Positions 79 to 32,912 of a DNA stretch of 64,000 nt are shown here, one piece after another. Numbering within the stretch: position 1 is the stretch's first letter; each line of letters begins with the position of its first letter. The stretch is from Ferrimicrobium sp. GTDB lineage: Bacteria > Actinomycetota > Acidimicrobiia > Acidimicrobiales > Acidimicrobiaceae. The DNA lies in the NCBI RefSeq assembly GCF_027364955.1, contig NZ_DAHXOI010000010.1, positions 1 to 64,000 of the forward strand. Direction: 5' to 3'. The notes under the pieces were generated by a model. The model was not told where the DNA came from. It was given only the letters and a program-made list of their open reading frames with translations, and did not search any database. Made by a program: the position numbers and the translations under genes.

Positions 79-756
79 ATGGCGCGCCTTCAATCGAGAG
101 TTCCTCCGATCTTTCTCGATGACGACCCAAGTAAAACGAGGATTAATGTAGGACTTGCTCGCGGTGTTCTCCGGACAGTGTCGAGGGGGTTGCAACAGAA
201 TGATTGGATATTGAGTCCAGATGCTGCACGGATTTACCAAGTTGGTCGAATGATTGGTGATTACTCTTACGCCACAGGGGAGACATTGTCCCATCGGGGA
301 AGGGTTCAGTAGCTTGGGATTGGCATCCCGCGAACCACAATGAATGAGTTACTGCGAGGTGCTGTAGGATCGGCAAGTAGATTAGCTAACCTCACGGACT
401 ATCCAACTGAGATAGAGCGGTTAATCAACATCGGTGAGCCGACGTCTGCCTAAACGCTCGTCGCTAAGTAACCAGGCATTGAGGACCGGGGTACCTTTGC
501 TCTTGAGAGGCACCTTGAGGATTTTCTTGCTCGAAACTGGAGCCAACCCATCCTTGGCAAGGCGTATTCGATCTTCCAGAAAGACGGTGAGCTGGTGGGT
601 TTGCAATACTTTACGGACGCTGAGACAATTGACATTATCGTGGCAGCAAGGACAATTGTCGCCCTCTGGTCATCGAACCAAACTGGTCGGGCGAGAGATG
701 TGGTCGCTGGTCAAACCCTGTGTTATACGGGCTACCTTCAGAGCCTTAGCCATCAG
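79..756 (+). pseudogene. Decayed restriction-endonuclease-like gene (NucS C-terminal-like nuclease domain)
   Basis: One reading frame starting at the ATG at 79 recalls a family of bacterial proteins that end in a NucS-like PD-(D/E)XK nuclease domain. The N-terminal stretch contains FLDDDPSKTRINVGLARGV. After in-frame stops at 310-312 (TAG, where TGG would restore Trp) and near 451 and 469, the same frame continues with LERHLEDFLARNW, DGELVG and GRARDVVAGQ. These are typical of the NucS C-terminal domain. Around 660-690 the catalytic strand is only recoverable in another frame (LVIE), implying a local frameshift. It abuts a second restriction remnant. The family call is from memory of motifs, without a search. 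The gene is almost certainly inactive. Confidence 0.55.
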
Positions 757-1121
757 AGCCCTTGTGCCACCCAGTATCTATCGAAGAGCTCCTGTGGTTT
801 CGGGTACTCAATCAGCTCAGTCGCCATGCCAATGGCGAAGTTAAACCCGACTATTTCTTTGCTATTGGTCGAAAGTGCGAACTGAAAGCTTAGAGTCTTC
901 CCGTATTCCTCGGCTTGCTGGGGCGATCGGAAGGTCTCGAGCGTAGCGGAGAGGACGAAGTCAGTGTGTTTTCGCTTGCCACGCTTGATATCGTTCGACA
1001 CCGGAATGATCCGACCATCGGTGAATATGCGCTGCTCGGTAGACGAGTGAGGATTGTCGTCCCACTCTGAACGAACCAGGCGCGGCACTACATCCTTACG
1101 GCAAGTGTCAGCCTCGCTCAC
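753..1121 (-). pseudogene. N-terminal fragment of a type I restriction R subunit (HsdR/EcoEI-like)
   Basis: The 122-residue frame begins SEADTCRKDVVPRL, continues with DDNPHSSTEQR and TDGRIIPV, and ends with TELIEYPKPQELFDRY. This is the characteristic start of EcoEI-type HsdR proteins, which are normally several hundred residues longer and continue into the helicase motor. The frame stops right after this N-terminal portion. The nuclease strand that should carry the VEAKA-type catalytic motif is missing between FVLSATLETF and PQQAEEYGKTL, which suggests an internal deletion of about twenty codons. No helicase motifs follow. It is a remnant of an older restriction locus, distinct from the intact hsdR at 24070-27117. 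Confidence 0.6.
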
Positions 1122-1295: not shown

Positions 1296-1733
1296 TTAGC
1301 GCCAGAACCGCTTGAGCCGCTGTAGCCAAGAGCGGCGCGATCGCTTATCTGTATCGGAGATCTCGGTCGGGCCGTTCTTTGCAGAGGTACGGTCCTCAAA
1401 GTAAGACTCCACGGCACGATGGTCGGCGAGCCGGCGTGACTGAGCGCTCTGTTTCGGGAGGCGTTCGACCCATTCCACCCGGTTATTCTGTATCACGTAG
1501 TGCGACTCACACGCGAACCCGTCGCTCTCGACTGATGGATGGAGGGAGACAGATTGTCCGTCGTAGGTTATCCGCCATTGTGCGGGACTTAATGGCGTTG
1601 ATACCGTTCGGCCGCAGCCGCAACAGCATAGATGAAGAACGGCCCCATACTCGATCGAGATGTACAGCTTGGCAGGCTGCAGCTCAGCCGGTATGACATC
1701 AAAGAATATCGGCTCGATGCTATTTACTCGCAT
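1296..1733 (-). CDS. DUF6527-like cysteine-rich protein of a ubiquitin-like operon
   Basis: The 145-residue protein starts at the ATG whose first base is 1733. That start overlaps the end of the E1 gene by 10 nt and suggests translational coupling. A longer frame opens at 1823 but would run far into the E1 gene. Near residue 35 there is LCCCGCG, and near residue 80 a CESH pair. Together they could make one Cys/His metal site of treble-clef type. The C-terminus is very basic (KRSRRSWLQRLKRFWR). Proteins of this type, which I recall as DUF6527, occur beside multiubiquitin and E1-like genes in bacteria. A role as a RING-like ligase or adaptor is speculation. The function is not established from this sequence. 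Confidence 0.6.
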   Translation of the reverse strand: MRVNSIEPIFFDVIPAELQPAKLYISIEYGAVLHLCCCGCGRTVSTPLSPAQWRITYDGQSVSLHPSVESDGFACESHYVIQNNRVEWVERLPKQSAQSRRLADHRAVESYFEDRTSAKNGPTEISDTDKRSRRSWLQRLKRFWR

Positions 1734-2911
1734 CTTGGACGGTCCACATTGATAAGAGCATTGCCGTCGATGGTGTAGGCACTGCAATGTTCGTGTTCTA
1801 AATCCAAGTATATGCCGGCCCACTTCTTCCAGCGAATCACCGCTAGGCTGGCCGAGAAGGCATTCAGTTCAGCAATTTGGATGTTCCGGTCGTAGAGCGC
1901 CTCTTGGTCCCGGTCGGTGAAGTCGATGCGAGTGCCGTTCAGTACGTGATCCTGTCGTTCTAGTGTGCTTGTCGTTACTCTGAGCACCCCAGCAAGCCGA
2001 TCGTCGGTTTCGTAGACTCCGATCCCGGTGTCGATGAAGGGGATGTTGCGGTCAGTAAGAAATCTGACGATCGCCTCCTTTGCGGGCCCGCTGTCCATCG
2101 AGAGGAAGGCAAAGCTGTAGCTATCCAATTCACCCAGGTTGGTCTCATTGATCGGGTAAGGGTGCGGGACGATCCCTTCCCGCATGGGGCCATACATATC
2201 CCTGTAGTAGTCCACCTTTTTCGGCGCCTCCCGGAGGGTTTCCAGCTTGGCGGCTCCGGGAGAGCGAAAGGCGTTATGGGAGTACAAGATGTCGCCGTCG
2301 AACAGGTGGATTTCTCGCACGGGCGTCTTGGCGACGAAGTCCAAGATGTATGAGCCTGTTCCGCCAAGCCCGACTATGGCGACTCTCATACCTTCGACCT
2401 TGCGGGTTATAGCGCTAACCCCCGAACGCCCCGGTCCAGTGTCCAGATACTTGAAGACAGAATCAGGATCGTCGTCCGCTATCTCCCTGTAAGTTCGGGC
2501 CGAAGGGCCGCCGATCGCCTGCGCCGGACCGTTGATCATGTTGGCGTAGTTGGTTATCTTCGCGTGGTAGTCCGGGAATGGAGTGCTTGGTCTACTTGAG
2601 AAGTGATGCGATTGCAGTGTCTGACCACGGAGCTTCATGTTTTCGCTCCGAGTGATGTGCGGTAGCTGCTTGCCGTAACGGTTACACGGGGTCGGACCGA
2701 CGAAGTCGACCTCGTGGTTGCCGGGAGGGCCAGTCCGATCACCGCTAAGGTTCAGCTCGCAGACCAGGCTGCCGGAACCCACCTTCCCCTCAGTCGTGAC
2801 ACAGGCGATGTTATCGACCACGAGGCGTCCATCATCGTCGATGGACACCTCGTAGCCGTCCTCACGGAGACGACGCAAGTCTGGACTATGACCGAGTGGT
2901 AGCTGTGACAT
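1724..2911 (-). CDS. E1-like (ThiF family) Ubl-activating enzyme with N-terminal extension
   Basis: This 395-residue protein has a Rossmann adenylation domain in its C-terminal half. VAIVGLGGTGSYILD is the nucleotide-binding loop, followed by HLFDGDILYSHNAFR with the acidic and arginine residues used by E1, ThiF and MoeB enzymes to adenylate the C-terminus of a ubiquitin-like protein. The first roughly 170 residues (GPPGNHEVDF, VGPTPCNRYG, FSSRP, YHAKITNY) match the extra domain I recall in E1 proteins paired with multiubiquitin proteins (DUF6791). It may stand in for an E2-like module, as no separate E2 gene is seen. The start overlaps the Ubl gene by 26 nt and the stop overlaps the next gene by 10 nt, so the three genes form one operon. 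The likely partner is the Ubl encoded just upstream. The identity of a catalytic cysteine is uncertain. Confidence 0.8.
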   Translation of the reverse strand: MSQLPLGHSPDLRRLREDGYEVSIDDDGRLVVDNIACVTTEGKVGSGSLVCELNLSGDRTGPPGNHEVDFVGPTPCNRYGKQLPHITRSENMKLRGQTLQSHHFSSRPSTPFPDYHAKITNYANMINGPAQAIGGPSARTYREIADDDPDSVFKYLDTGPGRSGVSAITRKVEGMRVAIVGLGGTGSYILDFVAKTPVREIHLFDGDILYSHNAFRSPGAAKLETLREAPKKVDYYRDMYGPMREGIVPHPYPINETNLGELDSYSFAFLSMDSGPAKEAIVRFLTDRNIPFIDTGIGVYETDDRLAGVLRVTTSTLERQDHVLNGTRIDFTDRDQEALYDRNIQIAELNAFSASLAVIRWKKWAGIYLDLEHEHCSAYTIDGNALINVDRPRCE

Positions 2912-3152
2912 TGAATACGGTCCGTTCCTTCACGGTCACGATGCCACCCTCCACCATGATCCCTTCATGCTCCGGTGCCTTGGCGTGCCGATAAGTAATG
3001 GTGTAAACGGTGTTCGGGTCCACTGCGCCGAAGGCCAGGATGACGACCTTGTCGAACGTCACCTCATCCGAGGGAACGGTCTTTTCCTGACCGTTTACGA
3101 TGATTACGAAGTCCTTCTCGGCCTCGGGTTTGATTGTTTCAGTGTCACTCAT
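2886..3152 (-). CDS. Multiubiquitin-family ubiquitin-like protein (single Ubl domain)
   Basis: This small protein of 88 residues matches the multiubiquitin domain pattern: VNGQEKTVPSDEVTFDKVVI, then NTVYTITYRHA, a glycine turn, and the terminal VKERTVFNVTATTRS. Many relatives carry several copies in tandem, but here there is one domain after an 18-residue polar leader. It lacks the C-terminal di-glycine of eukaryotic ubiquitin and ends in TTRS, which is usual for this family as I recall it. It is the first gene of the operon, preceded by a good ribosome site (AGGAGAG) and a promoter at 3202-3230. The presumed role is to be adenylated by the E1 and attached to a target. The target is unknown. 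Confidence 0.8.
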   Translation of the reverse strand: MSDTETIKPEAEKDFVIIVNGQEKTVPSDEVTFDKVVILAFGAVDPNTVYTITYRHAKAPEHEGIMVEGGIVTVKERTVFNVTATTRS

Positions 3153-3201
3153 ACACTCTCCTATGTCTCGAGTTGCGTTCTAGACGCTTGATTGTTAGAA
3201 T

Positions 3202-3230
3202 AGTATATCAGATTCGGTAAGTAATTGCAA
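3202..3230 (-). promoter_or_regulatory. Predicted sigma70 promoter of the Ubl operon
   Basis: Read on the minus strand, TTGCAA (3230-3225) is followed after exactly 17 nt by TATACT (3207-3202). Transcription would begin near 3195, leaving about 43 nt before the Ubl start codon. The -35 box lies inside the palindrome at 3224-3239. Confidence 0.55.
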
Positions 3231-3239
3231 GTGTGCAAT
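3224..3239. promoter_or_regulatory. Palindromic operator candidate between the Ubl operon and the XRE gene
   Basis: ATTGCA-AGTG-TGCAAT is a perfect inverted repeat. It covers the -35 element of the Ubl promoter and lies about 20 nt upstream of the XRE start codon. It is well placed for the XRE protein to repress the Ubl operon and itself. Confidence 0.5.
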
Positions 3240-3258
3240 CAGCCGGAGAAGGAGGAAC

Positions 3259-3624
3259 TTGATCGACGTGGAGAAGAAGGGATGGTTTGACGCGGGCGCC
3301 TTCTACGTGGCGGTGGATGCAGAACGGCAGGCCCGACGGCTTAACTGGAAGGAAGTGGCCGCCCAGTCGGGCGTGAGCGCCTCTACCCTCACCCGGATGG
3401 CGCAAGGAAAGCGGCCGGACGTGGACGGCCTGGCGGCCCTGGTGTCTTGGTCGGGGTTAGTCGCCGACGATTACATACGGTCAGAGGATGTCCGACGGGA
3501 AGCTGAGCCACTCGCGAAGATTTCCACCTACTTACGTTCCGATCGGAACCTCACGCCGGAAGCCGCGACCGCCCTAGATGAGCTGATCAAGACCATCTAT
3601 AACCGACTGAGGTTACCGGAGTAG
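3259..3624 (+). CDS. XRE-family helix-turn-helix regulator (CapH/ImmR-like position)
   Basis: A TTG start at 3259 has an ideal ribosome site (AAGGAGGA). The 121-residue protein has an HTH_3-type domain at about residues 20-75, with the recognition region WKEVAAQSGVSASTLTRMAQ and the following GKRPDVDGLAAL. The C-terminal half (LTPEAATALDELIKTIYNRL) is probably helical. The gene is followed 8 nt later by an ImmA/IrrE metalloprotease. In ICEs (ImmR-ImmA) and in regulated defence systems (CapH-CapP of CBASS) such pairs work as a repressor and its inactivating protease. It faces the Ubl operon across a 106-bp spacer with a shared palindrome, so control of that operon is likely. Control of the conjugation genes downstream is also possible. 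Confidence 0.8.
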   Translation: MIDVEKKGWFDAGAFYVAVDAERQARRLNWKEVAAQSGVSASTLTRMAQGKRPDVDGLAALVSWSGLVADDYIRSEDVRREAEPLAKISTYLRSDRNLTPEAATALDELIKTIYNRLRLPE

Positions 3625-3632
3625 GTGCAGAA

Positions 3633-4196
3633 ATGGGCTTCCAGCGGGGATTCAAGACCTGGGCCAGCTCGGTAGCGTTGGGGGCTCGGAATGAGCTTGG
3701 GATCGGCCAGTTCGACGCCCTAGACCCGTGGTTGCTAGCCGACCATCTCGACATCCCGGTTATTGGTCTCAGCTCGCTTGTAGGGGACGCTCCTGCCGTG
3801 GAGCACTTGTTGACCGTGGAGCCTGAGGCTTTCTCGGCAGTAACGGTCTTTGATGGCACTCGACGCATCGTCGTACATAACGACTCACACGCGGAGGTGC
3901 GACAGAACAGCAACATCTGCCATGAATTGAGTCACGGTCTCCTGAACCACCCTCCGACCCCAGCCTTGGACGATCGCGGGTGTCGGGTGTGGAGTCAGCG
4001 TATTGAGGACGAAGCAACGTGGTTAGCTGGCTGTCTCCTTGTCAGCGAGCCCGCAACCTTAGCCGTGGCCCGTGGCACGTTGAGCATCGCTGAGGCCGCT
4101 GTACGCCTTGGGGTAAGCCGGCAGATGATGCAGTTCCGGCTCAATGCAACCGGAGCGATCAAGCGGGTCTCACGTGCCGGAGCCGGGCGTCGATAG
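3633..4196 (+). CDS. ImmA/IrrE family metallo-endopeptidase
   Basis: The 187-residue protein carries the zinc-protease helix HELSHGLLNH (HExxH) near residue 98 and the downstream acidic segment IEDEATWLAGCLLVSE, which supplies the third ligand region in this family. The C-terminus has a helix-turn-helix-like stretch (VRLGVSRQMMQFRLNATGA), as is common in ImmA/IrrE proteins. The family cleaves XRE repressors after a signal such as DNA damage. The adjacent XRE gene is the obvious substrate. Gene order and spacing suggest co-transcription. Nothing in the sequence suggests inactivation. Confidence 0.85.
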   Translation: MGFQRGFKTWASSVALGARNELGIGQFDALDPWLLADHLDIPVIGLSSLVGDAPAVEHLLTVEPEAFSAVTVFDGTRRIVVHNDSHAEVRQNSNICHELSHGLLNHPPTPALDDRGCRVWSQRIEDEATWLAGCLLVSEPATLAVARGTLSIAEAAVRLGVSRQMMQFRLNATGAIKRVSRAGAGRR

Positions 4197-14859: not shown

Positions 14860-15737
14860 GGCGATGCCGTGAGACTCCTGGTGTGTGACGCATCTCGAGG
14901 CCGTACGGCAGGGACCGCTCATCCGCGGGTAAGTAGCCAGTGCTGGACCGACTCCTCAACCGGAACCCCCAGCGCGCTCTTGCACAGATTAAGGTCTCGT
15001 TGGCCGAAGGGAACGTTTGGGTATCTGAATACCCCGGGGTTCTTCGTCCCTCCGCGCTATCACTTGACGGGTATCAAGGCGAGATGAGGACTTCTAGTCC
15101 TGGATAGAGACTTTTGGCCATAGAATTCATGGGAACGCTCCCTATAGTCCTTTAGCAAAGCCGTCCTCGATGGTGCGCTGGCTCAGCTCCTGCGCACCAA
15201 TCCCTTCCCACTTGTCAGTGGTTGTTGCGACCTGATTGGACAAGCTAGACCCGTTTAGTACAGAATTTCAGGGATCTACTTTCCCAGCCCCCTCTTGAGC
15301 AAAGACGTCCGTGGTGGGAGTTGAGCAAGAGCGCTGCGTTGTTGTCGGCCCAAGCTTGCTAGGTTTTGTCCCGGGAGCCCATCGGTCTCAATTGGGTGTG
15401 TGACAGGCCGCTGGACGGCGACAGCGGAGACTTCACTCACGGTCCTGTTTAGCCCCTGCGTGGTTGGTGAGCATTCGAATCGGAAATCTGCTCCTCCTAT
15501 CTCGGATGCGCGGAGTGAACCCACAGACGGCGGCCCAGCCTCGCTTCGGGGGGCCTTCATGGATAAAGGGCGATGACGAGGAGTCCGGTAATGATCGCGG
15601 ATGTCGAGCGCCGTCTTCGAGCTCGCTTTGTCGCCTCAGCGCAAAAGCCTGGTGGCGGTCGTTCTGACGCAATTCCTGGCTTCGCCATCTTGGGTGAGAG
15701 GTCAATGCCTTCTCGTCTGTCTGGAAAGGGGGCATTC
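14860..15737. other. 878-bp gap with coding-like fragments
   Basis: No full-length gene is recognised. One short frame at 14940-15107 looks coding (listed separately). A second coding-like fragment near 15160-15255 (SKAVLDGALAQLLRTNPFP) lacks a start. The 15573-15737 part is open in the frame of the following ArdC-like gene and might be an N-terminal extension of it. Confidence 0.4.
14940..15107 (+). CDS. Possible 55-residue ORF or gene fragment
   Basis: A GTG-initiated frame encodes a balanced sequence including RNPQRALAQIKVSLAEG and VWVSEYPGVLRPSALSLDG, ending in EMRTSSPG. The composition looks like real protein rather than a shadow frame. No ribosome site is seen, and a stop lies two codons upstream of the start. 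It could be the 3' remnant of a larger transfer-region gene. I do not recognise a family. Confidence 0.25.
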   Translation: MLDRLLNRNPQRALAQIKVSLAEGNVWVSEYPGVLRPSALSLDGYQGEMRTSSPG

Positions 15738-16817
15738 ATGGTTTTGGAGGACCTGCACACGGAGAGCGTGCAGCTGGCACAGACAGAGAAGGTACGAGCT
15801 GCCCAAGCTATCCTCGAGGCTGAGATTGTCAAGATCCGATCTGGAGACGACTGGCACCGTTATCTGGCGTTTGCGGCTGAGCTACACTCGTATACTCCAA
15901 ATAACGCTCAGCTCATCATTGCCCAGCACGCGATGGCTTACCAGCAGGGGCGTGTTCCCGATCTGAATCCTGGGTTCGTGGCTGGGTTCCACACCTGGAA
16001 GGCACTCGGACGCCAAGTTGAACGGGGACAAAAGGGCTACGCAATCCTGGCTCCGATTCGCTATAGCCGCCGTGTCGCGTCCAGCCCCGATGGGCCGACA
16101 AGAGTGCTTCGCCACGATGAACCCCCTGGTCCAGGCGAGCGCGAGACGATGGCGATGACCCTTGGTGGCTTCAAGATCGAGCACGTGTTTTCCCAGTTTC
16201 AGACCTCGGGTGATCCCTTGCCAGAAGTGGCGAGTCCCAAGCTGCTGAACGGTACAGCGCCCGTTGGTCTTGGAGAGGCGATCATGCACCTTGCCATAGA
16301 GCGTGGTTATGCAGTTGAGACCGCGGGGTCTGCAGCTGAGCTGGGCGGAGCTAATGGCATGACTGATGTTACGGCGCACACCATTCGGATTCGGGACGAC
16401 ATAGATGATGCAGCGATGGTGAAGACCATGATTCATGAGGTCGCTCACGTTCTGCTCCATGCCGAGGGTCCTGGCGCGACTCTTGAGCGGTCGCGCCAAG
16501 AGGTCGAGGCAGAGTCGACGGCCTTCATCGTGGCAGCTGCGCACGGTATGGCGAGCGACGACTACAGCTTTCCCTACATCGCCGCCTGGGCTGGAGCCGA
16601 CCCCGCGAAGGCTATCGCTCAAACGCAGGCTCGAGTCTCCTCGGCAGCCCGATTGATTCTGGAAGCGTCTCCAGCACCGAAGATCCCCGGAGGAAGAGTT
16701 TCAGGTGTCGAAGAGGCGATCGCACGTAAGAGAAACGAGCGAGCAGTAGGCACGCCTCAAAACGAGCGGTTTGTGGCTTCGTACGGAGTCGATCGTGAGT
16801 ACCTTGCCAATTCGTGA
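15738..16817 (+). CDS. ArdC-like antirestriction / ssDNA-binding protein with zincin domain
   Basis: The ATG at 15738 follows a strong ribosome site (GAAAGGGGG). An in-frame start at 15573 is possible but lacks one. The 359-residue product has the ArdC N-terminal domain (WHRYLAFAAELHSYTPNNAQ, then WKALGRQVERGQKGYAILAP), which binds single-stranded DNA. A metallopeptidase-like domain follows, with MIHEVAHVLLHAEG (HExxH). ArdC proteins protect incoming plasmid DNA from restriction in the recipient. Its presence next to the coupling protein fits a conjugative element, and the island itself carries a type I restriction operon. Confidence 0.85.
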   Translation: MVLEDLHTESVQLAQTEKVRAAQAILEAEIVKIRSGDDWHRYLAFAAELHSYTPNNAQLIIAQHAMAYQQGRVPDLNPGFVAGFHTWKALGRQVERGQKGYAILAPIRYSRRVASSPDGPTRVLRHDEPPGPGERETMAMTLGGFKIEHVFSQFQTSGDPLPEVASPKLLNGTAPVGLGEAIMHLAIERGYAVETAGSAAELGGANGMTDVTAHTIRIRDDIDDAAMVKTMIHEVAHVLLHAEGPGATLERSRQEVEAESTAFIVAAAHGMASDDYSFPYIAAWAGADPAKAIAQTQARVSSAARLILEASPAPKIPGGRVSGVEEAIARKRNERAVGTPQNERFVASYGVDREYLANS

Positions 16818-16841
16818 CTTTGGGGCCAATGGTGGTGCCAG

Positions 16842-18803
16842 GTGTTGGTTGCAGCAGGTGTCTTCGGTTTTCGTGTTGTATCGCACTGGGTTGTCCTCGC
16901 CACCGAAGCTGATGCTGACCCGACTCCCCTTTGGAATAATGTTGTTGGATCACTCATGTCTGCGAGGACCGATCGTGATGAACCAGGCTCTACCGGGATT
17001 GGCATGTTAGCTCCAACGCCCCAGCGACCAAATGCCGATCGCAATGTTGATGTTGCTCTGGTTGCGATCGCAATTGCCATGCTGGTGATGGGCGCACTCT
17101 ATGGTGGTGCGCTGGTGAGCGCGATCATCTCTGGTCATCAAGTTCCTCATCGTCTCGATGGTCCGATTAATGCGCTAGCCCACCCAACCGATCCTTCGTT
17201 GGCTTGGCGTTCCCCGGTTGGTTCACCTTGGGTCTATTGGAGCGCCGAGACGTTTTCGCTGGTGCTGGTTGTCATGGTGCTCTACTTCGGTTGGAGAGTA
17301 TTTAGGCCCCAAGCACCTCGCTCTGAAGTAGTATCTGCGGACCCGACACAAATAGAAGGCATGGCAGAGCGTGCGCACATCGCGGCACTGGCGGGGCCGA
17401 AGGTGCTGCTAAGCCAAGCCGGGGTACTTCGTCCTTCCATTGCTGCCGCCGAGCCACGCGACGTTGGCTTCTATCTCGGCACGAGTCGGGGGGTGGACTG
17501 TTGGATGGGCGTGCGTGACTCGCTTGTGATCCTCGGACCTCCCGGTTCGGGCAAGGGTCTCAACCTGATTATCCCCTCCATTCTTGATGCCCCAGGTGCG
17601 GTGATCACGACCTCTACTCGGCCGGACAATCTGGCGGTGACACTCACGCGGCGCGGATCTGATGGTCGGCCTGTTGGAGTGTTTGATCCACAAGGAATTG
17701 CCATCGGTGCTCCATCCACCTTGCGTTGGTCGCCGGTGAGAGGCTGTGAGCGAGCTCAGACCGCCATGGTCAGAGCGAAGGCACTTTGTGCCGACTCAGG
17801 TCGCGGTGTCACTGAGGCGAACTTTTGGCAGCAACAGACACAGACCGCAGTCCGGTGCATGCTCCATGCTGCGGCGATCGTGGGACAGCCTCCATCGGTG
17901 CTGTATGAGTGGAGTCTCTCGGCGGCTGCTGCGAGGGATGCGGTCGCCATCCTCTCCAATCATCCAAGGGCAACCCCGAGCTGGGATCGAGCACTTGATG
18001 CGATTGTGTCAGCCGATCCAAGACAACGCGACTCAGTCTGGTCGATGGTTGGCAATGCCTTCGCGCCCCTCGCGGATCCCGGAGTCCTTGAGGCGTTGTC
18101 GCCAGCTGAGGGAGAATCCTTTCACCCACGTGACTTTCTCAACGACCGTGGAACGCTGTTTCTGCTGGGGACTGCTAGTGGCGCTTCAGCGACCGCTGGC
18201 TTGGTCTCTGCATTGATTGAGGATGTCGTGGAGGTGGCACGTCGGATGGCTGCAGCCTCACCTGGCGCACGCCTTGATCCACCCTTGACGCTGATACTCG
18301 ATGAGGCAGCCAATTATCCACTTCCATCCCTTGGTTCCTTGATGTCCGAGGGAGGAGGGACGGGGATCCCGACGATGGTGGTTCTCCAGTCGCTAGCCCA
18401 GGCAAGAGACCGATGGGGGTCAGAGACCGCTGGGGCCATCTGGGACTCTGCCACCGCGAAGGTCATTCTTGGTGGGAGTTCGAATGCGAATGACCTGGCG
18501 GACATCTCGCGCTTGGTGGGCGAACGGGAGGTGCTGGAGTCAACTCAATCGTATCAGAGCGGTTCATCCTCGACCGGTCGGTCAATATCAACCTCCATTC
18601 GGCGCCAGAGCGTATTGGATCCAGCGACAATACGGACCTTGAAGCTCGGCTATGGCTTGCTCCTCTATCGCGCCTCACAACCGATCATGCTCACGTTGAG
18701 ACCTTGGACTAGACGTCATGACGCTGGCCTGTTGCAAAGTGATCGGATCCAGGTCGAGGCCCTACTCCGACAGGGCGCTGGTGGGATCTTCGGAGATGCG
18801 TAG
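16842..18803 (+). CDS. VirD4/TraG-like type IV coupling protein
   Basis: The GTG start at 16842 gives 653 residues. Two membrane helices occur near residues 65-90 and 137-155 (ALVAIAIAMLVMGALYGGA; FSLVLVVMVLYFGW). The soluble domain has a P-loop, GPPGSGKGLNLIIPS, and the Walker B region TLILDEAANYPLPSL. The family-typical GGGTGIPTMVVLQSLAQARD follows. It would link the DNA substrate to the secretion channel. The gene lies 25 nt after the ArdC-like gene, and its end overlaps the HNH gene by 8 nt. Alternative starts such as 16956 would remove part of the N-terminus but not the helices. Confidence 0.88.
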   Translation: MLVAAGVFGFRVVSHWVVLATEADADPTPLWNNVVGSLMSARTDRDEPGSTGIGMLAPTPQRPNADRNVDVALVAIAIAMLVMGALYGGALVSAIISGHQVPHRLDGPINALAHPTDPSLAWRSPVGSPWVYWSAETFSLVLVVMVLYFGWRVFRPQAPRSEVVSADPTQIEGMAERAHIAALAGPKVLLSQAGVLRPSIAAAEPRDVGFYLGTSRGVDCWMGVRDSLVILGPPGSGKGLNLIIPSILDAPGAVITTSTRPDNLAVTLTRRGSDGRPVGVFDPQGIAIGAPSTLRWSPVRGCERAQTAMVRAKALCADSGRGVTEANFWQQQTQTAVRCMLHAAAIVGQPPSVLYEWSLSAAAARDAVAILSNHPRATPSWDRALDAIVSADPRQRDSVWSMVGNAFAPLADPGVLEALSPAEGESFHPRDFLNDRGTLFLLGTASGASATAGLVSALIEDVVEVARRMAAASPGARLDPPLTLILDEAANYPLPSLGSLMSEGGGTGIPTMVVLQSLAQARDRWGSETAGAIWDSATAKVILGGSSNANDLADISRLVGEREVLESTQSYQSGSSSTGRSISTSIRRQSVLDPATIRTLKLGYGLLLYRASQPIMLTLRPWTRRHDAGLLQSDRIQVEALLRQGAGGIFGDA

Positions 18804-19185
18804 ACCACGGCCGGGCCTGTCCTGGTCTCCCCGGCGTTGTGCGATTCGCCAGCAGTATGCGACGTACATGCGATCTCGCGCGTGGTACCTGCGACGAGAA
18901 CAGTGGGTGGGGGAGTGGAGACGACTTGCAGGTGGTCGAGATCCCTTCTGTCTCATCTGCGGCGCTCTGTGGACGACACGAAGTGGCGATCTCCATCACC
19001 GCAGCTATGGGAGACTTGGACACGAGAGCTTTACTGATCTCATCGCCCTCTGTCGTTCCTGTCATGTCAGTCTTCACCAGTTGATGGAGATGAACCCTGA
19101 ATGGCGAAAACGCCCGCATGAGCAGGCAACAGATGTGCTGGTTGCCGAGCTACGTCGGCAGCGGACGCGCAGGGTGGGGATCTAG
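18796..19185 (+). CDS. HNH endonuclease
   Basis: The chosen ATG at 18796 overlaps the end of the coupling-protein gene. The longer frame from 18718 would run through it. The 129-residue protein has the HNH core: CLICGALW, DLHHRSYGRLGHE and ALCRSCHVSLHQL. Two CxxC pairs bind structural zinc, and the DLHH and late His residues form the catalytic centre. HNH nucleases are common in actinobacterial plasmids and phages. Lying right behind the coupling protein and lacking any recognisable relaxase nearby, it could take part in DNA processing for transfer, but that is speculative. Confidence 0.8.
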   Translation: MRRPRPGLSWSPRRCAIRQQYATYMRSRAWYLRREQWVGEWRRLAGGRDPFCLICGALWTTRSGDLHHRSYGRLGHESFTDLIALCRSCHVSLHQLMEMNPEWRKRPHEQATDVLVAELRRQRTRRVGI

Positions 19186-19187
19186 CA

Positions 19188-19757
19188 ATGGATTCAGACT
19201 CCGAGGATCGCGAGGGGTTAGTGCTTGATGAGCAGCTAGGAGACATGCTAGAGGATCCAGAGTGTGGCGGGTCAGAGACGATCGACTCACCAGACGTGGG
19301 CCTGACCCATGATGCCTATCGACAGCTCCTCGAAGAACTGGGAGACGAGGAAGACCCTGCCCTCAGCGCCCCAACTTGCTGGCCAGCTATCCGTGTTGGT
19401 GATCGGCGTAGCGAGTGGAATTCGCTTCGTGCTTGGGTGGAAGAGTTAGTGCACAGATATCCCCACCTTGATCATCATGTGATCCCTCGCTGCTGGTATC
19501 TGCACAATGGTCATGTCGAAGCGCTGGTCGCATTGCGAGATCACGAGAGAATCAGTTTTGCCCAGAGTTCACCGGCTACGAGTCCAGTCCAATGGCAGTG
19601 GGCGTTCGCTCAGATCGAGTCTCGTCTGCGTGAGTGGACTGCGCATGCGGGCTGTCTCTCAACTCATCGATCGACTCCAGCTCCACCTCGCGCCATTGAT
19701 GATGATGCGTGGGAGCACTTCTTAGTCCACGATGAGGAGGCTCATCGCCTCCTTTGA
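19188..19757 (+). CDS. DUF4913-like plasmid-type protein
   Basis: The 189-residue protein begins with a very acidic region (about residues 1-60). It continues with a Trp-rich segment, SLRAWVEELVHRYPHLDHHV, then CWYLHNGHVEALVALRDHER. The spacing of Trp, Arg and His resembles DUF4913 proteins found in actinobacterial integrative plasmids. It starts 2 nt after the HNH stop and is clearly co-transcribed. No enzymatic motif is visible and the function is unknown. The family call is moderate. Confidence 0.5.
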   Translation: MDSDSEDREGLVLDEQLGDMLEDPECGGSETIDSPDVGLTHDAYRQLLEELGDEEDPALSAPTCWPAIRVGDRRSEWNSLRAWVEELVHRYPHLDHHVIPRCWYLHNGHVEALVALRDHERISFAQSSPATSPVQWQWAFAQIESRLREWTAHAGCLSTHRSTPAPPRAIDDDAWEHFLVHDEEAHRLL

Positions 19758-19840
19758 GCCTGCTCCCGGCTTGACGAATTCCCTCTGGATTGACCCAGAA
19801 GTAAGTGACGCTTCATAGGGCACGAGGAAAGGAGCCAGGC

Positions 19841-20335
19841 ATGACGGTGAAGACGGAATGGTCGGTGGAGCACGCTTGTGGACACTCCCAAGATCACGAT
19901 CTCTCGGAGAAGCGGGCAAGTAGGCGCGCGGGTTATGCCCGATGGCTCGCCACCAAAGATTGTTCAGCGTGTTGGCACAGAGCTCAGGGCCGCCAACAGG
20001 GAAGCGATCAACAAGCTTGGCTCACCGAGCGCAGGTCACAGCAGATGGAACAGATCACCTCGTGGGAGGTAAGGGCCGACATGCCCTGCCTCGATGGTTC
20101 AGACAAGGCAGTCGAGTGGGCTCGGAGGGTTCGATTTGAGTTACTTCGGGCCGCCTATGAACTCCTCGATGCAGAGGAGGCCTACATCACTGAAGTGGAG
20201 CAACCCGCCCGGCTCATTACTTCGGCCTCGTGGTGGATCGATCAGCGAGATGCAGATGCGGGCGATGTCAGCGAACTCATTGTGGATCAGGCTGGCGATC
20301 CGCTGGCTTCCACCGGATCGGAGAATCCGTTCTGA
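19841..20335 (+). CDS. Hypothetical protein with N-terminal Cys/His cluster
   Basis: The start at 19841 is set by a strong ribosome site (GAAAGGAG). An upstream in-frame ATG at 19805 has none. The 164-residue product has an N-terminal Cys/His arrangement, VEHACGHSQDH then CSACWHR, compatible with a small zinc ribbon. The remainder is rich in Trp, Arg and Glu and probably helical. Similar short zinc-binding proteins occur in actinobacterial plasmid transfer regions. Specific function unknown. Confidence 0.6.
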   Translation: MTVKTEWSVEHACGHSQDHDLSEKRASRRAGYARWLATKDCSACWHRAQGRQQGSDQQAWLTERRSQQMEQITSWEVRADMPCLDGSDKAVEWARRVRFELLRAAYELLDAEEAYITEVEQPARLITSASWWIDQRDADAGDVSELIVDQAGDPLASTGSENPF

Positions 20336-20336
20336 G

Positions 20337-20669
20337 ATGACTACGTGGCTTGATCTTCATGACCACGCCCTCGTGGAGCGTGCCATCGCATCCCTTAGTG
20401 AGCAGGAGACTTCACGATGGGAGAAGGCACACATGCGTGCCAATGGCGACCCACGATTCGCGCTTTGGCTATCGCTTGTCGATGATCTCATTGAGACCTA
20501 TCCTGCCCTCCAGCATTTCTCTTCACCTGCCTCTTTGCCTATTTCCCAACTCAGAGAGAACTACCTCGCTGGTTGCTCGCCACTCGACGCTGCATCGCTC
20601 TCTCATCGCGCAGGCGAACTCTCTGACACCAATGAACTGCTCCAGCCGTCGCTCACACCTGGGAGGTGA
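20337..20669 (+). CDS. Hypothetical protein in the transfer operon
   Basis: Translation begins at the ATG at 20337, directly after the previous stop (TGAGATG). The product of 110 residues is mainly helical (HALVERAIASLSEQETSRWE, LSLVDDLIETYPALQHF), with no known motif. It contains SPLDAASLSHRAGEL near the end. Its stop overlaps the start of the primase-like gene, so it probably belongs to the same transcript. A longer frame from 20094 is open but overlaps the previous gene and has no ribosome site. Confidence 0.5.
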   Translation: MTTWLDLHDHALVERAIASLSEQETSRWEKAHMRANGDPRFALWLSLVDDLIETYPALQHFSSPASLPISQLRENYLAGCSPLDAASLSHRAGELSDTNELLQPSLTPGR

Positions 20670-21847
20670 TGATGTCACTTGACTTTGTGTCGATCCGCGC
20701 GCAACACTCACTCGCTGAGATAGTCGCTCGGACCGGACTCTTTGTGCCGCCCGGGGTAACGGATTACAAAGTCTGTTGTCCGATGCCCGATCACGATGAT
20801 CGGAATCCGTCGATGATGTTGCATTTGCGCACTGACCGCTTTCATTGCTTTGGTTGTGGTGCCCATGGCGACGTCATTCAGTGGGTCGAAAGCGTCTATC
20901 GCGTGAGTGTGGGTGAGGCTATTGGGATGATCGAGTCCGCGGCTGCCTTCCCTGCCATTGTCACAAGGTCTGTGGTCGAGTCCAGTGATCAGCGGAACAT
21001 CGGCACAAGACTCAGGTGCGAGGTGCCAGATCTTGAACGAACTTCGATCAAGCGGGTCAAGGCTGTCCTCAAAGAAGCCTGGTACTACTACAGCCATGGC
21101 CAACTTCACGACGAGGGACATCGCTATTTGCAGAGACGAAGGATCTTTGTGGACGCTCTTGAGGCAGAGGTTAGCGATCCTGTTGTCGGACATACTCCTT
21201 ATGGCGTGCCTGATCGGCTGCTTATCCATCTCCGAGGGCACGGATTCACTGACGACGAAGTTGTCGATGCAGGTCTGGCGAAGCGCAATGGGCGAGGAAT
21301 TATTGATACGTTTCGTGACCGGGTGATGATGCCTGTCAAGGACTGCGACGGAGATGTGGTTGGCTTCGTCGGGAGATACGTGGGTCAGCGCCCTGGAGCG
21401 CCGAAGTATCTGAACTGCACGAAGACGGTGGCCTATGATAAGTCGATCAACCTCTACCGCCCCAGTCGCCCAGTTCTTGGTCCGACGGCAAGGATCATTA
21501 TTTGCGAAGGAACGATCGATGCACTCGCAATCGCGGTGGTCGCAGCATCAGCTGGACGATCAACGGAGTTTGCCCCAGTAGCCGGGTCTGGGCTAGCCAT
21601 CTCTGATGCTCAGTGGGGTGCAATCGTCGATATCCATGCGGGCACCATCGTTCTATGTGCCGACGGGGATATACCTGGGCGTGAGGCAAACTTGCAGTGG
21701 TCGCACGCCTTGGCCAAGCGAGGGCGTGGGGGTCTCGTTGCTCCCTGGCCTGAAGGCGATGATCCTGCAAGCTTTCTTGGGGCCAATGGCGAAGTTGGTC
21801 TCGGGTCGATCACCCGCTCATCGACTTTGGTGCACATCTCGAACTAG
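20669..21847 (+). CDS. DnaG-like primase, short mobile-element form
   Basis: Three start codons are stacked at 20666-20674 behind GGGAGG. ATG at 20669 overlaps the previous stop. The 392-residue protein has a CHC2 zinc finger (CCPMPDHDDRNPSM, then HCFGCGAHGDVIQW), a primase catalytic core including GFVGRYVGQ, and a TOPRIM domain with IIICEGTIDALAI and VLCADGDIPGRE. It lacks the helicase-binding C-terminal domain of chromosomal DnaG, which is longer. Such primases are common on conjugative elements, where they prime the transferred or replicating strand. It is the last gene of the transfer block. Confidence 0.85.
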   Translation: MMSLDFVSIRAQHSLAEIVARTGLFVPPGVTDYKVCCPMPDHDDRNPSMMLHLRTDRFHCFGCGAHGDVIQWVESVYRVSVGEAIGMIESAAAFPAIVTRSVVESSDQRNIGTRLRCEVPDLERTSIKRVKAVLKEAWYYYSHGQLHDEGHRYLQRRRIFVDALEAEVSDPVVGHTPYGVPDRLLIHLRGHGFTDDEVVDAGLAKRNGRGIIDTFRDRVMMPVKDCDGDVVGFVGRYVGQRPGAPKYLNCTKTVAYDKSINLYRPSRPVLGPTARIIICEGTIDALAIAVVAASAGRSTEFAPVAGSGLAISDAQWGAIVDIHAGTIVLCADGDIPGREANLQWSHALAKRGRGGLVAPWPEGDDPASFLGANGEVGLGSITRSSTLVHISN

Positions 21848-24069: not shown

Positions 24070-27000
24070 TCATATTTTACTTCCTATCCCGAGGCCAAGA
24101 AACCTCTCAAAGAACGCCCCGAGTCTCACGAGCACATGCTGTTTCTTATCGCTATGGCCCCCGCTGGGCGAGAAGCGTGACACTGGCGGAAGGATCTTCG
24201 TGATAGCGGTTCCGGCGGTTGAGATTGAACCGTCCCGAAAAGCACGGTCAATAAACTCCTTGGTCTCCTCTGGGTTCAGTCCCTCTTCGTTGATGATGTT
24301 CTCAAGTTCAGCAGTGCGACTCGCTTCGATGAATGCGCGCCACTCTTCGTCGATCTTGCCGCTGGCTGAGACTGAGTCGACAAAGCTCATGATGAGATCC
24401 TTCTTGTTGCGCAACGAGGGGCTGGAGTCGACGGCACGCCGAATCTGGCTAATGGAGTCGATCTCCTTGTCTGTCCCATCACCCCGGGTTTCACGCCACT
24501 TCTGAACCAGCATCAAAATGTAGTCCACGTTGATCTCAACCTGCTTGATGAGCTCGATCTCAAAGACGATGTCGTCGTTGATGGACTCCTTCTCGGTATC
24601 ACTGATGCGTCGGAAGTCTGCATAGAGATCGAGATACACGCTGCGGTAATCCTGGCCCTGTCGCTCGGTCAGGATCTCGTTGCCTTCAAACTCATCAAAG
24701 GCGCTCAAGATGTTCTGGAGTCGGAGTATGACGCCAAAGAGAGCGATGAAGTCCTTCTGTGCCGTTTCACCAACGATTTGGACACCCAGTGGGTACTTGG
24801 TCAGGAGCTCCTGAGTATGCTCGGCATACTCTACGTAGTAGTCGCCATAGGGCTTGAGTAACACGATCCCTTGAGCATCTCTGTTCCCGAACAACGCGAT
24901 GGCGTCGTTTGTCTCGGTTTCGAGGTTACGGAACGAGACGATGTTGCCGTAGGTCTTGACAGAGTTCAGAATCCGGTTGGTACGCGAGTAGGCCTGCAAG
25001 AGGCCATGATTGACGAGACGCTTGTCAACAAAGAGGGTGTTCAGAGTCGTTGCATCAAAGCCGGTCAAGAACATGTTCACGACGATGACGAGGTCGATCT
25101 CACGGTTCTTCAGCCGGAGGGAGAGATCCTTGTAGTAGTTCTGAAACTTATCCGAAGAGGTGTCAAAGCTGGTACCGAAGAAGGAGTTGTAGTCCTTGAT
25201 AGCGTCCTCAAGAAAGTCCCTTGATGGTCGGTCAAGCGCATTGGTCTCAAAACCCTCTTCATCGAGGTAATCGTCACCAACATCTTCGTTCGGAGCATAG
25301 GAGTAGATGATGCCCACCTTGAGCCTGCGATCAGAGGGCAAGCCTGCTTGCTGGCGCTTAAACTCGGCATAGTGGTTCTTTGCCGCGCTGATCGAAGCAG
25401 TTGCAAAGAGCGCGTTGAACCCGTGAACCCGTTTGCCCGCTAGCGAGTAGTGCTCAGCCCTCTTGGTCTTTTGGTCAAAGTGCTCTAAGGTATAGGCGAC
25501 GACCTGGCGGAGTCGTTCTGGAGCCAAGAGTGCTCGCTCGGTGTCGATGGACGAGACTTGCTTGTCGGTTAGACCTTCCGAGGGCCTGATAGTGTTCACG
25601 TAGTCGATGCGAAACGGGAGGACGTTCTTATCGTTGATCGCATCAACGATGGTGTAGGTGTGAAGCTTCTCGCCAAAGGCTTGTTCGGTGGTCTTGAGCT
25701 TCGGGTTCCCGCCGCTGCCAGCGTTGACTGCAAAGATCGGCGTGCCGGTGAAGCCGAACAGATTGTAGCGCTTGAAGGCCCTCGTGATTGAGGTGTGCAT
25801 GTCCCCAAACTGAGAACGGTGGCATTCATCAAAGATCAGTACGACATGCCCTCCATAGATGGCGTGACCCTTGTTGCCAGAGATGAAGGTCGAGAGCTTC
25901 TGAATGGTGGTGATAATGATCCTGGCATTTGGGTCCTCCAATTGCCGTTTCAAAACAGCCGTTGAAGTATTGGAGTTGGCAGCACCCTTCTCGAAGCGAT
26001 CGTACTCACGCATGGTCTGATAGTCGAGATCCTTACGATCAACGACAAAGAGCACCTTCTCGATATCAGCCAGCTTTGAGGCGAGCTGAGCAGCCTTGAA
26101 GCTTGTCAGGGTCTTGCCTGACCCCGTGGTGTGCCAAACGTAGCCACCAGCTTCGATCCTACCGAGCTGGCGGTAGTTGGTAGAGATCTCAATCTTTTGG
26201 AGGATCCGCTCGGTAGCGACGATCTGATAGGGTCGCATCACCAACAGCAGCCCGTCGGCAGTGAGTACGCAGTAACGAGTCAGAATGTTAAGTAAAGCAT
26301 GCTTGGCAAAGAAGGTCTTCGTGAACCCCGCGAGATCCTGTATTGGCTTATTGGTCGCATCAGCCCACCAGGAGGTGAACTCGAAGGAGTTGGAGGTCTT
26401 TCGAACCCTCTTCGATCCGGCGCTCTCGTCTAAGTGTTGACGCCGGGTGGTGTTGGAGTAGTACTTAGTCAATGTACCGTTGCTGATCACAAAGAGCTGT
26501 ACGTAGTCAAAGAGCCCAGAGCCCGCCCAGAAGCTGTCTCGCTGGTAGCGATCAATCTGGTGGAACGCCTCACGAATGTCAACGCCGCGGCGTTTGAGCT
26601 CAACATGGACAAGCGGTAGCCCGTTGACCAGAATCGTTACGTCATAGCGATTCGAGTGCGTGGCACCCGCTTCCTCTCCGATCTCGTACTGGTTGATGAC
26701 CTGGAGACGGTTGTTGTGGATGTTCTTCTTATCGAGTAGCGAAATATTCCTCGTCGAGTTGTCATCTCGCTTGAGTACCTGGATGTGGTCTTCTTGGATG
26801 CGATGGGTCTTCTCGGCCGGACCTTCATTCGCTCCAGCGATAGTCTCACCAAAGAACCGCTTCCACTCGTCATCGGAGAACAGAATTGAGTTCAGAGCCT
26901 CAAGCTGGGTGCGGAGGTTGCCAATAAGTTGGGCTTCACTCGTGACGGGAAGATACTCATATGCTTGGGACTCGAGCAGCTTGATGAACTCTCGTTCCAA

Positions 27001-27117
27001 AGCAGCCTCGGACTGATAGGCTGCTTCATTTGATGCATCCGGGATGAACTCAGAGACAACAGTGCTCTCGGAGCTGACTGCAATCGGCTCGTAATGTCTT
27101 GCCTTGGCCTCGCTCAC
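24070..27117 (-). CDS. hsdR: Type I restriction enzyme, R (restriction/translocase) subunit
   Basis: This 1015-residue protein is full length for HsdR. The N-terminal nuclease domain shows VTILVNGLPLVHVELKRRG (PD-(D/E)XK, ELK). The motor domain has WHTTGSGKTLTSFKAAQL (Walker A) and VVLIFDECHRSQFGDMH (DEAD-box-type motif II). FGFTGTPIF (motif III) and VVNMFLTGFDATTLNTLF (late helicase motif) are also present. It translocates DNA and cuts far from the recognition site in complex with HsdM and HsdS. Its start overlaps the second HsdS half by 4 nt. All motifs appear intact. Confidence 0.95.
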   Translation of the reverse strand: MSEAKARHYEPIAVSSESTVVSEFIPDASNEAAYQSEAALEREFIKLLESQAYEYLPVTSEAQLIGNLRTQLEALNSILFSDDEWKRFFGETIAGANEGPAEKTHRIQEDHIQVLKRDDNSTRNISLLDKKNIHNNRLQVINQYEIGEEAGATHSNRYDVTILVNGLPLVHVELKRRGVDIREAFHQIDRYQRDSFWAGSGLFDYVQLFVISNGTLTKYYSNTTRRQHLDESAGSKRVRKTSNSFEFTSWWADATNKPIQDLAGFTKTFFAKHALLNILTRYCVLTADGLLLVMRPYQIVATERILQKIEISTNYRQLGRIEAGGYVWHTTGSGKTLTSFKAAQLASKLADIEKVLFVVDRKDLDYQTMREYDRFEKGAANSNTSTAVLKRQLEDPNARIIITTIQKLSTFISGNKGHAIYGGHVVLIFDECHRSQFGDMHTSITRAFKRYNLFGFTGTPIFAVNAGSGGNPKLKTTEQAFGEKLHTYTIVDAINDKNVLPFRIDYVNTIRPSEGLTDKQVSSIDTERALLAPERLRQVVAYTLEHFDQKTKRAEHYSLAGKRVHGFNALFATASISAAKNHYAEFKRQQAGLPSDRRLKVGIIYSYAPNEDVGDDYLDEEGFETNALDRPSRDFLEDAIKDYNSFFGTSFDTSSDKFQNYYKDLSLRLKNREIDLVIVVNMFLTGFDATTLNTLFVDKRLVNHGLLQAYSRTNRILNSVKTYGNIVSFRNLETETNDAIALFGNRDAQGIVLLKPYGDYYVEYAEHTQELLTKYPLGVQIVGETAQKDFIALFGVILRLQNILSAFDEFEGNEILTERQGQDYRSVYLDLYADFRRISDTEKESINDDIVFEIELIKQVEINVDYILMLVQKWRETRGDGTDKEIDSISQIRRAVDSSPSLRNKKDLIMSFVDSVSASGKIDEEWRAFIEASRTAELENIINEEGLNPEETKEFIDRAFRDGSISTAGTAITKILPPVSRFSPSGGHSDKKQHVLVRLGAFFERFLGLGIGSKI

Positions 27118-27698
27118 GCTGGGGCCTCCTCAAAAGTCAACAGTCGGTCACGGTAGTACTCGTACTGTTTGCGGCGAGCATTGAGTTCGGCGGGAAGGCC
27201 GACTGAGAGATCGTTTACCAGGGAATCGAACTTGTCGAGAATGTCGACGATGCGATCTTGTTCTTGTCGCGAAGGAACGGGAATCGCTATTTTCGCGAGA
27301 CTCTCACCAGATATGCGACGCACCTTAGTTCCAGTGATATGGCGCTTCTTGTGCAACTGGAATTCATTGGTTTGGAAAAAGTACGAGACATATTTTGGCG
27401 CAAGAGCATGACGGAAGATGAACGCATCGCCGCTTACTGCAATTTTGTCGTCACCAATCCAAGCGACAGCTTTGCCGACGGCTTCGTCGTCTTCGCTCGT
27501 CGTGGCGATCACAAGATCTCCGGGGTTAGCCCTGCGAGATCGTCTCGCTAACTCCTCATCAACAAAAGATATGGTCTCAGTCGCAGCCGTGCCATAGTGA
27601 GTGTGTATCTGACCATAGTGAATCGCACCAACGCCCATCTCGCGTAGGTTATCTTTCTGGATTCCGTTACCACGTATGAACTCACCAAGCTCACCCAT
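27114..27698 (-). CDS. hsdS: Type I restriction specificity subunit, second half (TRD2)
   Basis: This 194-residue frame begins MGELGEFIRGNGIQKDNL, a typical start of a target-recognition domain, and includes AIHYGQIHTHYG. It ends with the conserved dimerising helix region QEQDRIVDILDKFDSLV and ELNARRKQYEYYRDRLLTF. It is half the length of a normal HsdS (about 400 residues). The other half is encoded just upstream and joined by a 9-nt G tract (coding strand). With one G fewer, both frames would fuse through GGVRRIPMGELG. A ribosome site (GGAGG) before the ATG means it may also be translated separately as a half-subunit. Confidence 0.85.
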   Translation of the reverse strand: MGELGEFIRGNGIQKDNLREMGVGAIHYGQIHTHYGTAATETISFVDEELARRSRRANPGDLVIATTSEDDEAVGKAVAWIGDDKIAVSGDAFIFRHALAPKYVSYFFQTNEFQLHKKRHITGTKVRRISGESLAKIAIPVPSRQEQDRIVDILDKFDSLVNDLSVGLPAELNARRKQYEYYRDRLLTFEEAPA

Positions 27699-32835: not shown

Positions 32836-32912
32836 TGGTGGAGGTGATGGGACTCGAACCCACGAACCTCTTGACTGCCAGTCAAGCGCTCTACCAGCTG
32901 AGCTACACCCCC
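32836..32912 (-). tRNA. tRNA-Ala(GGC)
   Basis: Reading the minus strand gives the acceptor stem GGGGGTG paired with CACCTCC, then discriminator A and an encoded CCA. The D arm is GCTCAGCTGGTAGAGC. The anticodon arm is CTTGA-CTGGCAG-TCAAG with anticodon GGC, and the T arm is GTGGG-TTCGAGT-CCCAT. All four stems pair. The gene is divergent from leuS. Its 3' end points toward the accessory island, as expected for a tRNA used as an integration site. Confidence 0.95.

Follow-up and report, generated by a model that had tools for sequence, protein, structure and literature searches.

Operons for ubiquitin-like proteins (UBLs) in bacteria are relevant to how the eukaryotic ubiquitin system arose, and some kinds of them are tied to phage defence. 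Passages of Iyer (2006; PMC1779556) predict an operon kind that includes a cysteine-rich C-x3-C-x35-38-H-x2-C protein, with Synechocystis sll6052 as the zinc-finger example, and describe a subset of E1 enzymes in which an uncharacterized N-terminal domain stands in place of JAB. Excerpts of a 2016 paper (PMC4963859) report that 70% of PF14452 proteins adjoin Xre/COG2856 loci, which are read there as toxin-antitoxin pairs. Among Bub operons, 219 of 544 come with CapW or with CapH plus CapP, and 59 with CapK plus CapS (Chambers 2026; PMC13373217, cited from selected sections); in those sections activation of CapP by single-stranded DNA (ssDNA) is in print, and phage protection is not demonstrated for Bub. 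According to parts of PMC10904395, ssDNA activates PprI, and the same is cited for CapP. Here we analyze an operon for a UBL, an E1-like enzyme and a DUF6527 protein, together with its divergent regulatory pair, in a 64,000-nucleotide stretch of Ferrimicrobium sp. (assembly GCF_027364955.1, contig NZ_DAHXOI010000010.1, positions 1 to 64,000), which we call the window. An earlier note made from the letters alone had read the locus as a regulated, possibly antiphage, ubiquitin-like system, and this interpretation as a whole is partly supported: the locus is a real ubiquitin-like operon that is probably regulated, a defence role is unproven, and the operon is most likely a conjugation system derepressed by DNA damage and carried on a mobile element.

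The three operon genes lie on the minus strand, and those for an XRE-family repressor and an ImmA/IrrE-type M78 metallopeptidase diverge from them on the plus strand across a gap of 106 bp. The UBL (2886..3152) has 88 amino acids, a single Multi_ubiq (beta-grasp) domain (PF14452, 1.5e-11, above the cut-off) and the C-terminus T-T-R-S. The E1-like enzyme (1724..2911; 395 amino acids) is composed of DUF6791 (about residues 1-158) and a ThiF adenylation domain (about 162-393), with support from Pfam, NCBIfam and a predicted model. The DUF6527 protein (1296..1733; 145 amino acids; PF20137, 1.7e-22) bears a putative metal site, C36-x3-C40 ... C75-x2-H78; its start is taken as the ATG at 1733, while the mechanical open reading frame (ORF) starts at 1823, because the former fits the family alignment. 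On the other strand, the XRE repressor, in a CapH-like position (3259..3624; 121 amino acids; TTG start), matches HTH_31 at 2.1e-6, and the CapP-like metallopeptidase (3633..4196; 187 amino acids; PF06114 Peptidase_M78, 1.2e-15), hereafter ImmA, carries HELSH at residue 97 as the active-site HExxH. PADLOC gave capP for ImmA (1.2e-6) and a weak capH for the XRE protein (0.019). The E1 gene overlaps the UBL gene by 26 nucleotides, as computed from the coordinates, and the DUF6527 gene by 10. Thus the five proteins that the earlier note had named are all where it placed them, its compact overlapping operon divergent from an XRE and an ImmA gene is borne out, and the profile matches to Multi_ubiq, ThiF, DUF6527 and M78 that its reading called for were found.

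To see how this arrangement compares across relatives, 106 loci were surveyed, all of them found through the E1: the window, 7 from genomes, 18 annotated plasmid loci and 80 genome loci (cited below by L numbers). The 80 genome loci are the best matches to the query among at least 569 stretches with E1 relatives in GTDB genomes and are not a random sample. The own-genome duplicates L001 and L007 had been set aside, and dropping 15 of the 106 that have at least 90% E1 identity to a kept locus left 91 non-redundant loci, to which the counts below refer unless stated otherwise. A UBL match is present at all 106 E1 loci, and DUF6527 at 90 of 91; the one locus without it, L003, is truncated by the end of its contig. 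The 26-nucleotide overlap of UBL and E1 genes is exact in 89 of 91 loci when the E1 start is aligned; with the E1 start annotated further upstream, the overlap in L020 and L023 comes to 41 nucleotides. An M78 gene, counted only if at most 500 amino acids long (which excludes the UvrD fusions described below), with a match of at least 20 bits and with HExxH, is found at most 2.5 kb upstream of the UBL gene in 42 of the 77 loci with sufficient sequence, divergently in 38 of these, versus 0 of 70 downstream; this coupling is therefore not due to chance. The genome-contig loci alone, which lie outside the training of the M78 model, show the same (34/60 upstream vs 0/55 downstream, P = 4e-13, Fisher's exact test), as do a 3-kb limit (42/74 vs 1/70, the one being L049, whose near-twin L058 was dropped as redundant) and the counts before the redundancy and length filters (50/91 vs 0/80). 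Such an M78 gene is more frequent with short UBLs: it accompanies 28 of 42 UBLs of up to 130 amino acids, 7 of 9 of 131-190 and 7 of 26 above 190. The conserved co-occurrence with an XRE-ImmA pair that the earlier note expected in other genomes is thus evident.

The gap between the UBL and XRE genes holds ATTGCA-AGTG-TGCAAT (3224..3239, unstranded), the only exact match to the pattern ATTGCA-N4-TGCAAT in the 3.08-Mb genome, and we regard it as a candidate XRE operator on the grounds of this uniqueness and of its conservation. A consensus scan toward the UBL returned one extended -10 promoter against a shuffle mean of 0.2, namely the candidate UBL-operon promoter TTGCAA-17-TATACT (3202..3230, minus strand), for which the scan alone does not imply function; its predicted -35 (TTGCAA, 3230-3225) falls inside the palindrome. 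Among 45 loci with an XRE gene near the UBL gene, the window included, 6 of the 8 other loci with a close XRE (51-75% identity to that of the window) have the palindrome with no more than one mismatch, versus 1 of 36 with a distant XRE (P = 2.7e-5, Fisher's exact test, the cut between close and other XRE having been set after the palindrome table was seen). The window, L009 and L054 served to define the motif; the scan then added L034 and L059, and the reading of the cyanobacterial regions followed. The single case among the 36 is L009, one of the loci used for the definition, whose XRE is distant. Three of the six palindrome-bearing loci with a close XRE, in Synechocystis, Nostoc and Pseudanabaena, were found after the motif had been fixed, and their E1 enzymes carry Prok-JAB. 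In a control with permuted half-sites, 5 of 91 loci (window included) have the palindrome with at most one mismatch against a mean of 0.085 over 200 permuted palindromes; one of the 200 reached 5, which may be the motif itself, as the draw did not exclude it. With up to two mismatches, the palindrome is found in 8 of 91 upstream regions versus 2 of 87 downstream regions, and shuffles of single regions reach one mismatch in 0-4 of 300. An inverted repeat of such size is not rare as such: shuffling the 106-bp gap produced one in 414 of 2000 cases. The common palindrome over the predicted UBL promoter backs the word "regulated" in the earlier note.

The XRE and ImmA proteins of the window are identical to those of the Synechocystis pSYSX pair at 66 of 113 and 82 of 179 positions, and the E1 enzymes at 40 of 132 over a local stretch. 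The presence of the same XRE-ImmA type at the JAB-type operons of Synechocystis, Nostoc and Pseudanabaena suggests one switch serving two enzyme sets. Separately, three loci with another XRE type (L088, L038 and L026) share a different repeat with AGAGGTAT upstream of the UBL gene, which is a perfect palindrome only in L088 and is perhaps the operator of that XRE type.

The E1-like enzyme matches PF20590 (DUF6791) at residues 10-158 (2.6e-39), PF00899 (ThiF) at 170-300 (3.1e-8) and NCBIfam PRK06153.1-4 at 446 bits (cut-off 352), and the PADLOC E1-E2 matches cover its ThiF part only. No JAB match was obtained with Pfam up to E 1, in a library that detects Prok-JAB in five of five JAB-type E1 enzymes used as a control. 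In its predicted model (mean predicted local distance difference test, pLDDT, 90.4), Foldseek ranked Citrobacter BubCD first (1.5e-14) and MccB next (6.3e-11), and by fold the closest structure is BubCD 9eae_B (Z 24.6, root-mean-square deviation 2.9, 228 aligned, model residues 162-393), followed by SUMO E1 (Z 23.2) after a tie described below; the structure match list spanned only residues 146-393, i.e., the ThiF side. In sequence searches as in fold searches, BubCD, the Bub E1 solved with E2 and UBL, thus takes or shares first place for the ThiF domain. Residues G181, G183, G184, G186, D205, D207, R216, K232 and Y340 are invariant in the 91 loci. A correspondence of Y340 to BubCD Y370 (mutated in PDB 9eav) is not claimed, as both fall in the same loop region but in different alignment columns. 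Ten E1 enzymes of other ubiquitin-like operons, five of which were shown to carry Prok-JAB, have two CxxC pairs (Cys in 8, 8, 8 and 9 of 10 at the four columns). The best-conserved E1 cysteine of the surveyed loci, C76, lies in DUF6791 (81/91), where H66 is found in 91 of 91, giving the spacing H-x9-C. The HPN...C motif of E2 enzymes has that same H-x9-C spacing. The E1 model opens with a helix, which four strands follow. These features are a lead toward an E2-like fold of DUF6791, for which a profile comparison (below) gave no match.

The UBL matches the last part (144-222) of PDB 9cd2 (E 0.0013), a multi-ubiquitin domain protein whose tail, T-D-K-S, is T-x-x-S like that of the window UBL. 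The last UBL residue is Ser in 90 of 91 loci and Thr stands at -4 in 89, and Gly is found at the last two positions in 0 of 91; the Synechocystis and Nostoc UBLs instead end T-T-T-E-G. The E1 start codon falls within the codons of UBL residues -8 and -7, so conservation there is partly due to shared coding, which does not account for the conservation of Ser -1 and Thr -4. All 90 non-redundant sequences of the DUF6527 protein keep C36, C40, C75 and H78. The model of the protein, although confident (pLDDT 89.3), matched no solved fold (best Foldseek E 0.29; best VIA Z 3.1), which does not imply a new fold.

Taken together, these results suggest, as the reading we think rather probable, a mobile UBL conjugation operon of the DUF6791 branch that is silenced by XRE, opened by ImmA and used for tagging directed against invading DNA, with the XRE-ImmA pair probably switching the operon on after DNA damage. 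An autoregulated XRE repressor would keep the UBL operon silent, presumably by sitting as a dimer on the conserved palindrome (3224-3239), which covers the predicted -35 of the UBL promoter. By analogy with CapH-CapP and PprI-DdrO, ssDNA from damage, phage infection or incoming DNA would activate ImmA, which would then cut XRE and free the promoter. The UBL would come as a mature protein whose T-x-x-S end is free, and its C-terminal Ser may be adenylated by the ThiF domain, whose fold is predicted. DUF6791 may help to pass the UBL on, replacing the JAB and E2 of sister operons, so that the UBL would become attached to target proteins that the zinc-type DUF6527 protein might select or hold. Tagging would then be triggered by stress and would shield the element, or the host that carries it, from invading DNA.

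Several observations weigh against this proposal. On the regulatory side, ImmA is short and covers only positions 41-149 of the 242-position capP profile, the XRE model also matched in no more than 29 of the 42 loci with an M78 gene upstream, and two of the eight loci with a close XRE have the palindrome with two (L002) or three (L040) mismatches. No E1 relative was found in IMG/VR with the patterns used nor among 50,697 phage records. On the enzymatic side, the ThiF domain has no well-conserved Cys, the best column (position 271) being Cys in 46 of 91 loci and Ser in the window. C76, the only well-conserved Cys, is missing in 10 of 91, which makes a standard thioester relay doubtful, and hhalign showed no profile similarity of DUF6791 to seven Bub-type E2 enzymes (E 0.29). 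Moreover, enzymes that do not conjugate match the ThiF domain about equally well, as ThiF itself ties with BubCD by fold (Z 24.0 vs 24.6) and TcdA ties with it by sequence profile (8.7e-11 vs 1.1e-10).

It is the latter ties, together with the close fold match to MccB, the absence of a well-conserved Cys from the ThiF domain and a UBL that ends in Ser and not in Gly-Gly, that would fit an alternative in which UBL activation by the ThiF protein serves not protein tagging but a small-molecule, RNA or sulfur-transfer role (ThiS/MoaD-like, TcdA-like or MccB-like). We consider this unlikely, since BubCD, a structure with E2 and UBL, leads or shares the lead throughout, DUF6527 is common to Bub-type operons too, and none of the 18 annotated plasmid stretches showed thiazole or molybdopterin genes. 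A further possibility is that the operon is regulated as proposed, but that the UBL is a scaffold or filament that is modified or assembled without tagging other proteins. Filaments of three-domain UBLs are reportedly described by Gong in 2025, and multi-ubiquitin domain proteins have solved structures, 9cd2 with its T-D-K-S tail among them; the window UBL has a single domain, however, and an ATP-dependent activating enzyme is encoded alongside it, so that we give this a very low probability. The presence of an E1 in the surveyed loci is uninformative on this point, because the loci were fetched by their E1.

The XRE-ImmA pair could also be a toxin-antitoxin pair that stabilizes the cassette on its plasmid or element without regulating it, as published for Slr6056-Slr6057 in the excerpts of the 2016 paper (PMC4963859), and many cassettes are indeed on plasmids or, as here, next to conjugation genes. 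Yet the M78 gene keeps to the promoter side, the palindrome is common to one XRE type and overlies the predicted UBL promoter, and a WYL or HATPase protein takes that place in some loci that lack the pair, which makes this explanation quite improbable. Returning to the damage-derepressed conjugation system that we prefer, a bolder form of it is possible but doubtful. In this form the DUF6791 branch would have a chemistry of its own, with no propeptide, Ser and not Gly activated, an E1 domain without catalytic Cys, hand-on by DUF6791 without a separate E2, and no JAB, and one interchangeable XRE-ImmA switch with its operator would serve, across phyla, both this branch and the one with JAB, which is presumably reversible.

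The neighbors of the UBL operons at other loci are also diverse. Thirty-five loci lack such an M78 gene. Among the cases inspected there, in which 9 of 20 proteins scanned had no Pfam match, WYL proteins are present at L014, L018 and L027, and a HATPase protein at L072 and, with a winged helix-turn-helix (HTH) partner, at L032, resembling CapK/CapS. TrmB at L046, a Panacea/HTH protein at L106 and a sigma-70 region 4 protein at L080 misfit the theme of DNA damage. Instead of XRE-ImmA, an SMC/Rad50-like ATPase precedes the UBL operon at L029:3831-5594 and L030:3575-5590 (metagenome-assembled genomes of Acidimicrobiales and Actinomycetes, respectively). Fusions of M78 with a UvrD helicase and a PD-(D/E)XK nuclease of varying match strength were confirmed by Pfam at eight DUF6791-type loci (L012:1920-5312, L013:2798-6208, L067:1817-5200, L084, L086, L090, L096 and L105), whose UBLs are long and probably three-domain, and a fusion of M78 and UvrD also exists at a further ubiquitin-like locus (L123:450-3803). 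The fusion genes lie upstream of the ubiquitin-like operons and co-directional with them; each product is possibly an end-processing machine that incorporates a protease for sensing damage. Because several of these neighbor classes sense or process DNA in known relatives, they point by analogy, though not as proof, to DNA damage as the input. In another ubiquitin-like operon, on a Celeribacter plasmid, an IS256-type transposase gene (L120:4888-6159) is found between the E2 and E1 genes.

The genomic setting is that of a 3.08-Mb assembly in 84 contigs, and the window has three M78 matches in all. Between about 5 and 32 kb, the window encodes a type IV secretion system coupling protein, an ArdC-like protein, a DnaG-type primase, a type I restriction system and an Mrr protein, and with conjugation-type genes as neighbors the operon seems to sit in a conjugative-type element. 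The coupling protein, the primase and the ArdC-like protein, itself with a weak M78 score, occupy 15573-21847, and HsdR, HsdM, a specificity domain and the Mrr-like protein occupy 24070-31224 of the same element as the UBL operon. A tRNA-Ala gene (32836-32912) between the element and the leucyl-tRNA synthetase gene is a possible integration site. On the other side, the window starts at the end of its contig (C10), which limits the sequence downstream of the DUF6527 gene to 1.3 kb; positions 1-1290 hold short ORFs only, of which that at 753-1121 (minus strand), with no Pfam match, may be a remnant gene. DUF6791 is patchily distributed: with the own genome counted, the order has it in 6 of 198 genomes and the phylum in 3 of 396. 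The branch is widespread all the same, with at least 569 GTDB stretches and with E1 relatives on plasmids, where 115 of 72,556 records have a match and 108 have one over at least 80% of the query. PF14461 (E2) is found in 5 of 296 genomes of the phylum, a count not used further.

The operon kind and its coupling to a regulator are already in print (Iyer 2006; the 2016 Synechocystis paper; the 2026 Bub paper). Our additions are the palindrome that follows the regulator across phyla and enzyme types, the combination of a Ser-ended tail with an E1 domain poor in cysteine, and the fusions of M78 with UvrD, three points at which no literature search was aimed; in the open-licence literature that was searched, none of DUF6791, DUF6527, PF20590 and PF20137 is named, and PF14452 is named in one paper. 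An operator candidate, a compact trio of genes and an unusual tail make it a tractable set of questions whether this branch conjugates, how and when. If a Ser-ended UBL does join proteins, the chemistry would depart from that of Gly-ended systems.

Among known systems, BilABCD is likewise a bacterial operon with an E1 and a UBL, but the five window proteins have no JAB or E2 match, and PADLOC gave no match named Bil, from a library whose content of Bil models was unchecked; as far as these five proteins and 1.3 kb downstream show, the locus does not appear to be a Bil operon. CapH-CapP of CBASS and DdrO-PprI resemble it in having genes for an HTH repressor and an M78 protease at the promoter end of the operon, the ImmA of the window being shorter than the capP profile, as noted above. 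Bub (BubA, BubB and BubCD; PDB 9ea4, 9ea5, 9ea8, 9eae and 9eav) is alike in its ThiF domain, for which BubCD is the top solved fold, tied with ThiF by Z, and differs in that BubCD was solved with an E2 (BubB), whereas the window operon has no E2 match and a Ser-ended UBL. Pfam found no E2/UBC domain in the five proteins, either separate or fused to the UBL, whose one domain is all that it contains. In a plasmid operon of Enterobacter roggenkampii, whose E1 matches BubCD at 844 bits, the order of UBL, E1 and DUF6527 is the same as here, but the E1 carries Prok-JAB, in the place of which the window E1 has DUF6791. The passages of Iyer (2006) on PolyUbl operons (type 6e) describe their usual form as a JAB-E1 fusion with an E2/RWD-like protein, neither of which was found among the five window proteins. 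They also give a UBL (1-3 repeats in the family), an E1 and a cysteine-rich metal-binding protein, all three of which have counterparts here, the third in the DUF6527 protein with its putative metal site, and a subset of E1 enzymes with an unknown N-terminal domain, to which DUF6791 fits; the metal signature printed there is C-x3-C-x35-38-H-x2-C, and that of the window protein is C-x3-C-x34-C-x2-H. The Synechocystis pSYSX cassette with Slr6056-Slr6057 differs in its Prok-JAB E1, its separate Prok-E2_E gene and its Gly-ended UBL, and it shares with the window a protein annotated as DUF6527, the same divergent layout, a related XRE-ImmA pair and the palindrome with one mismatch.

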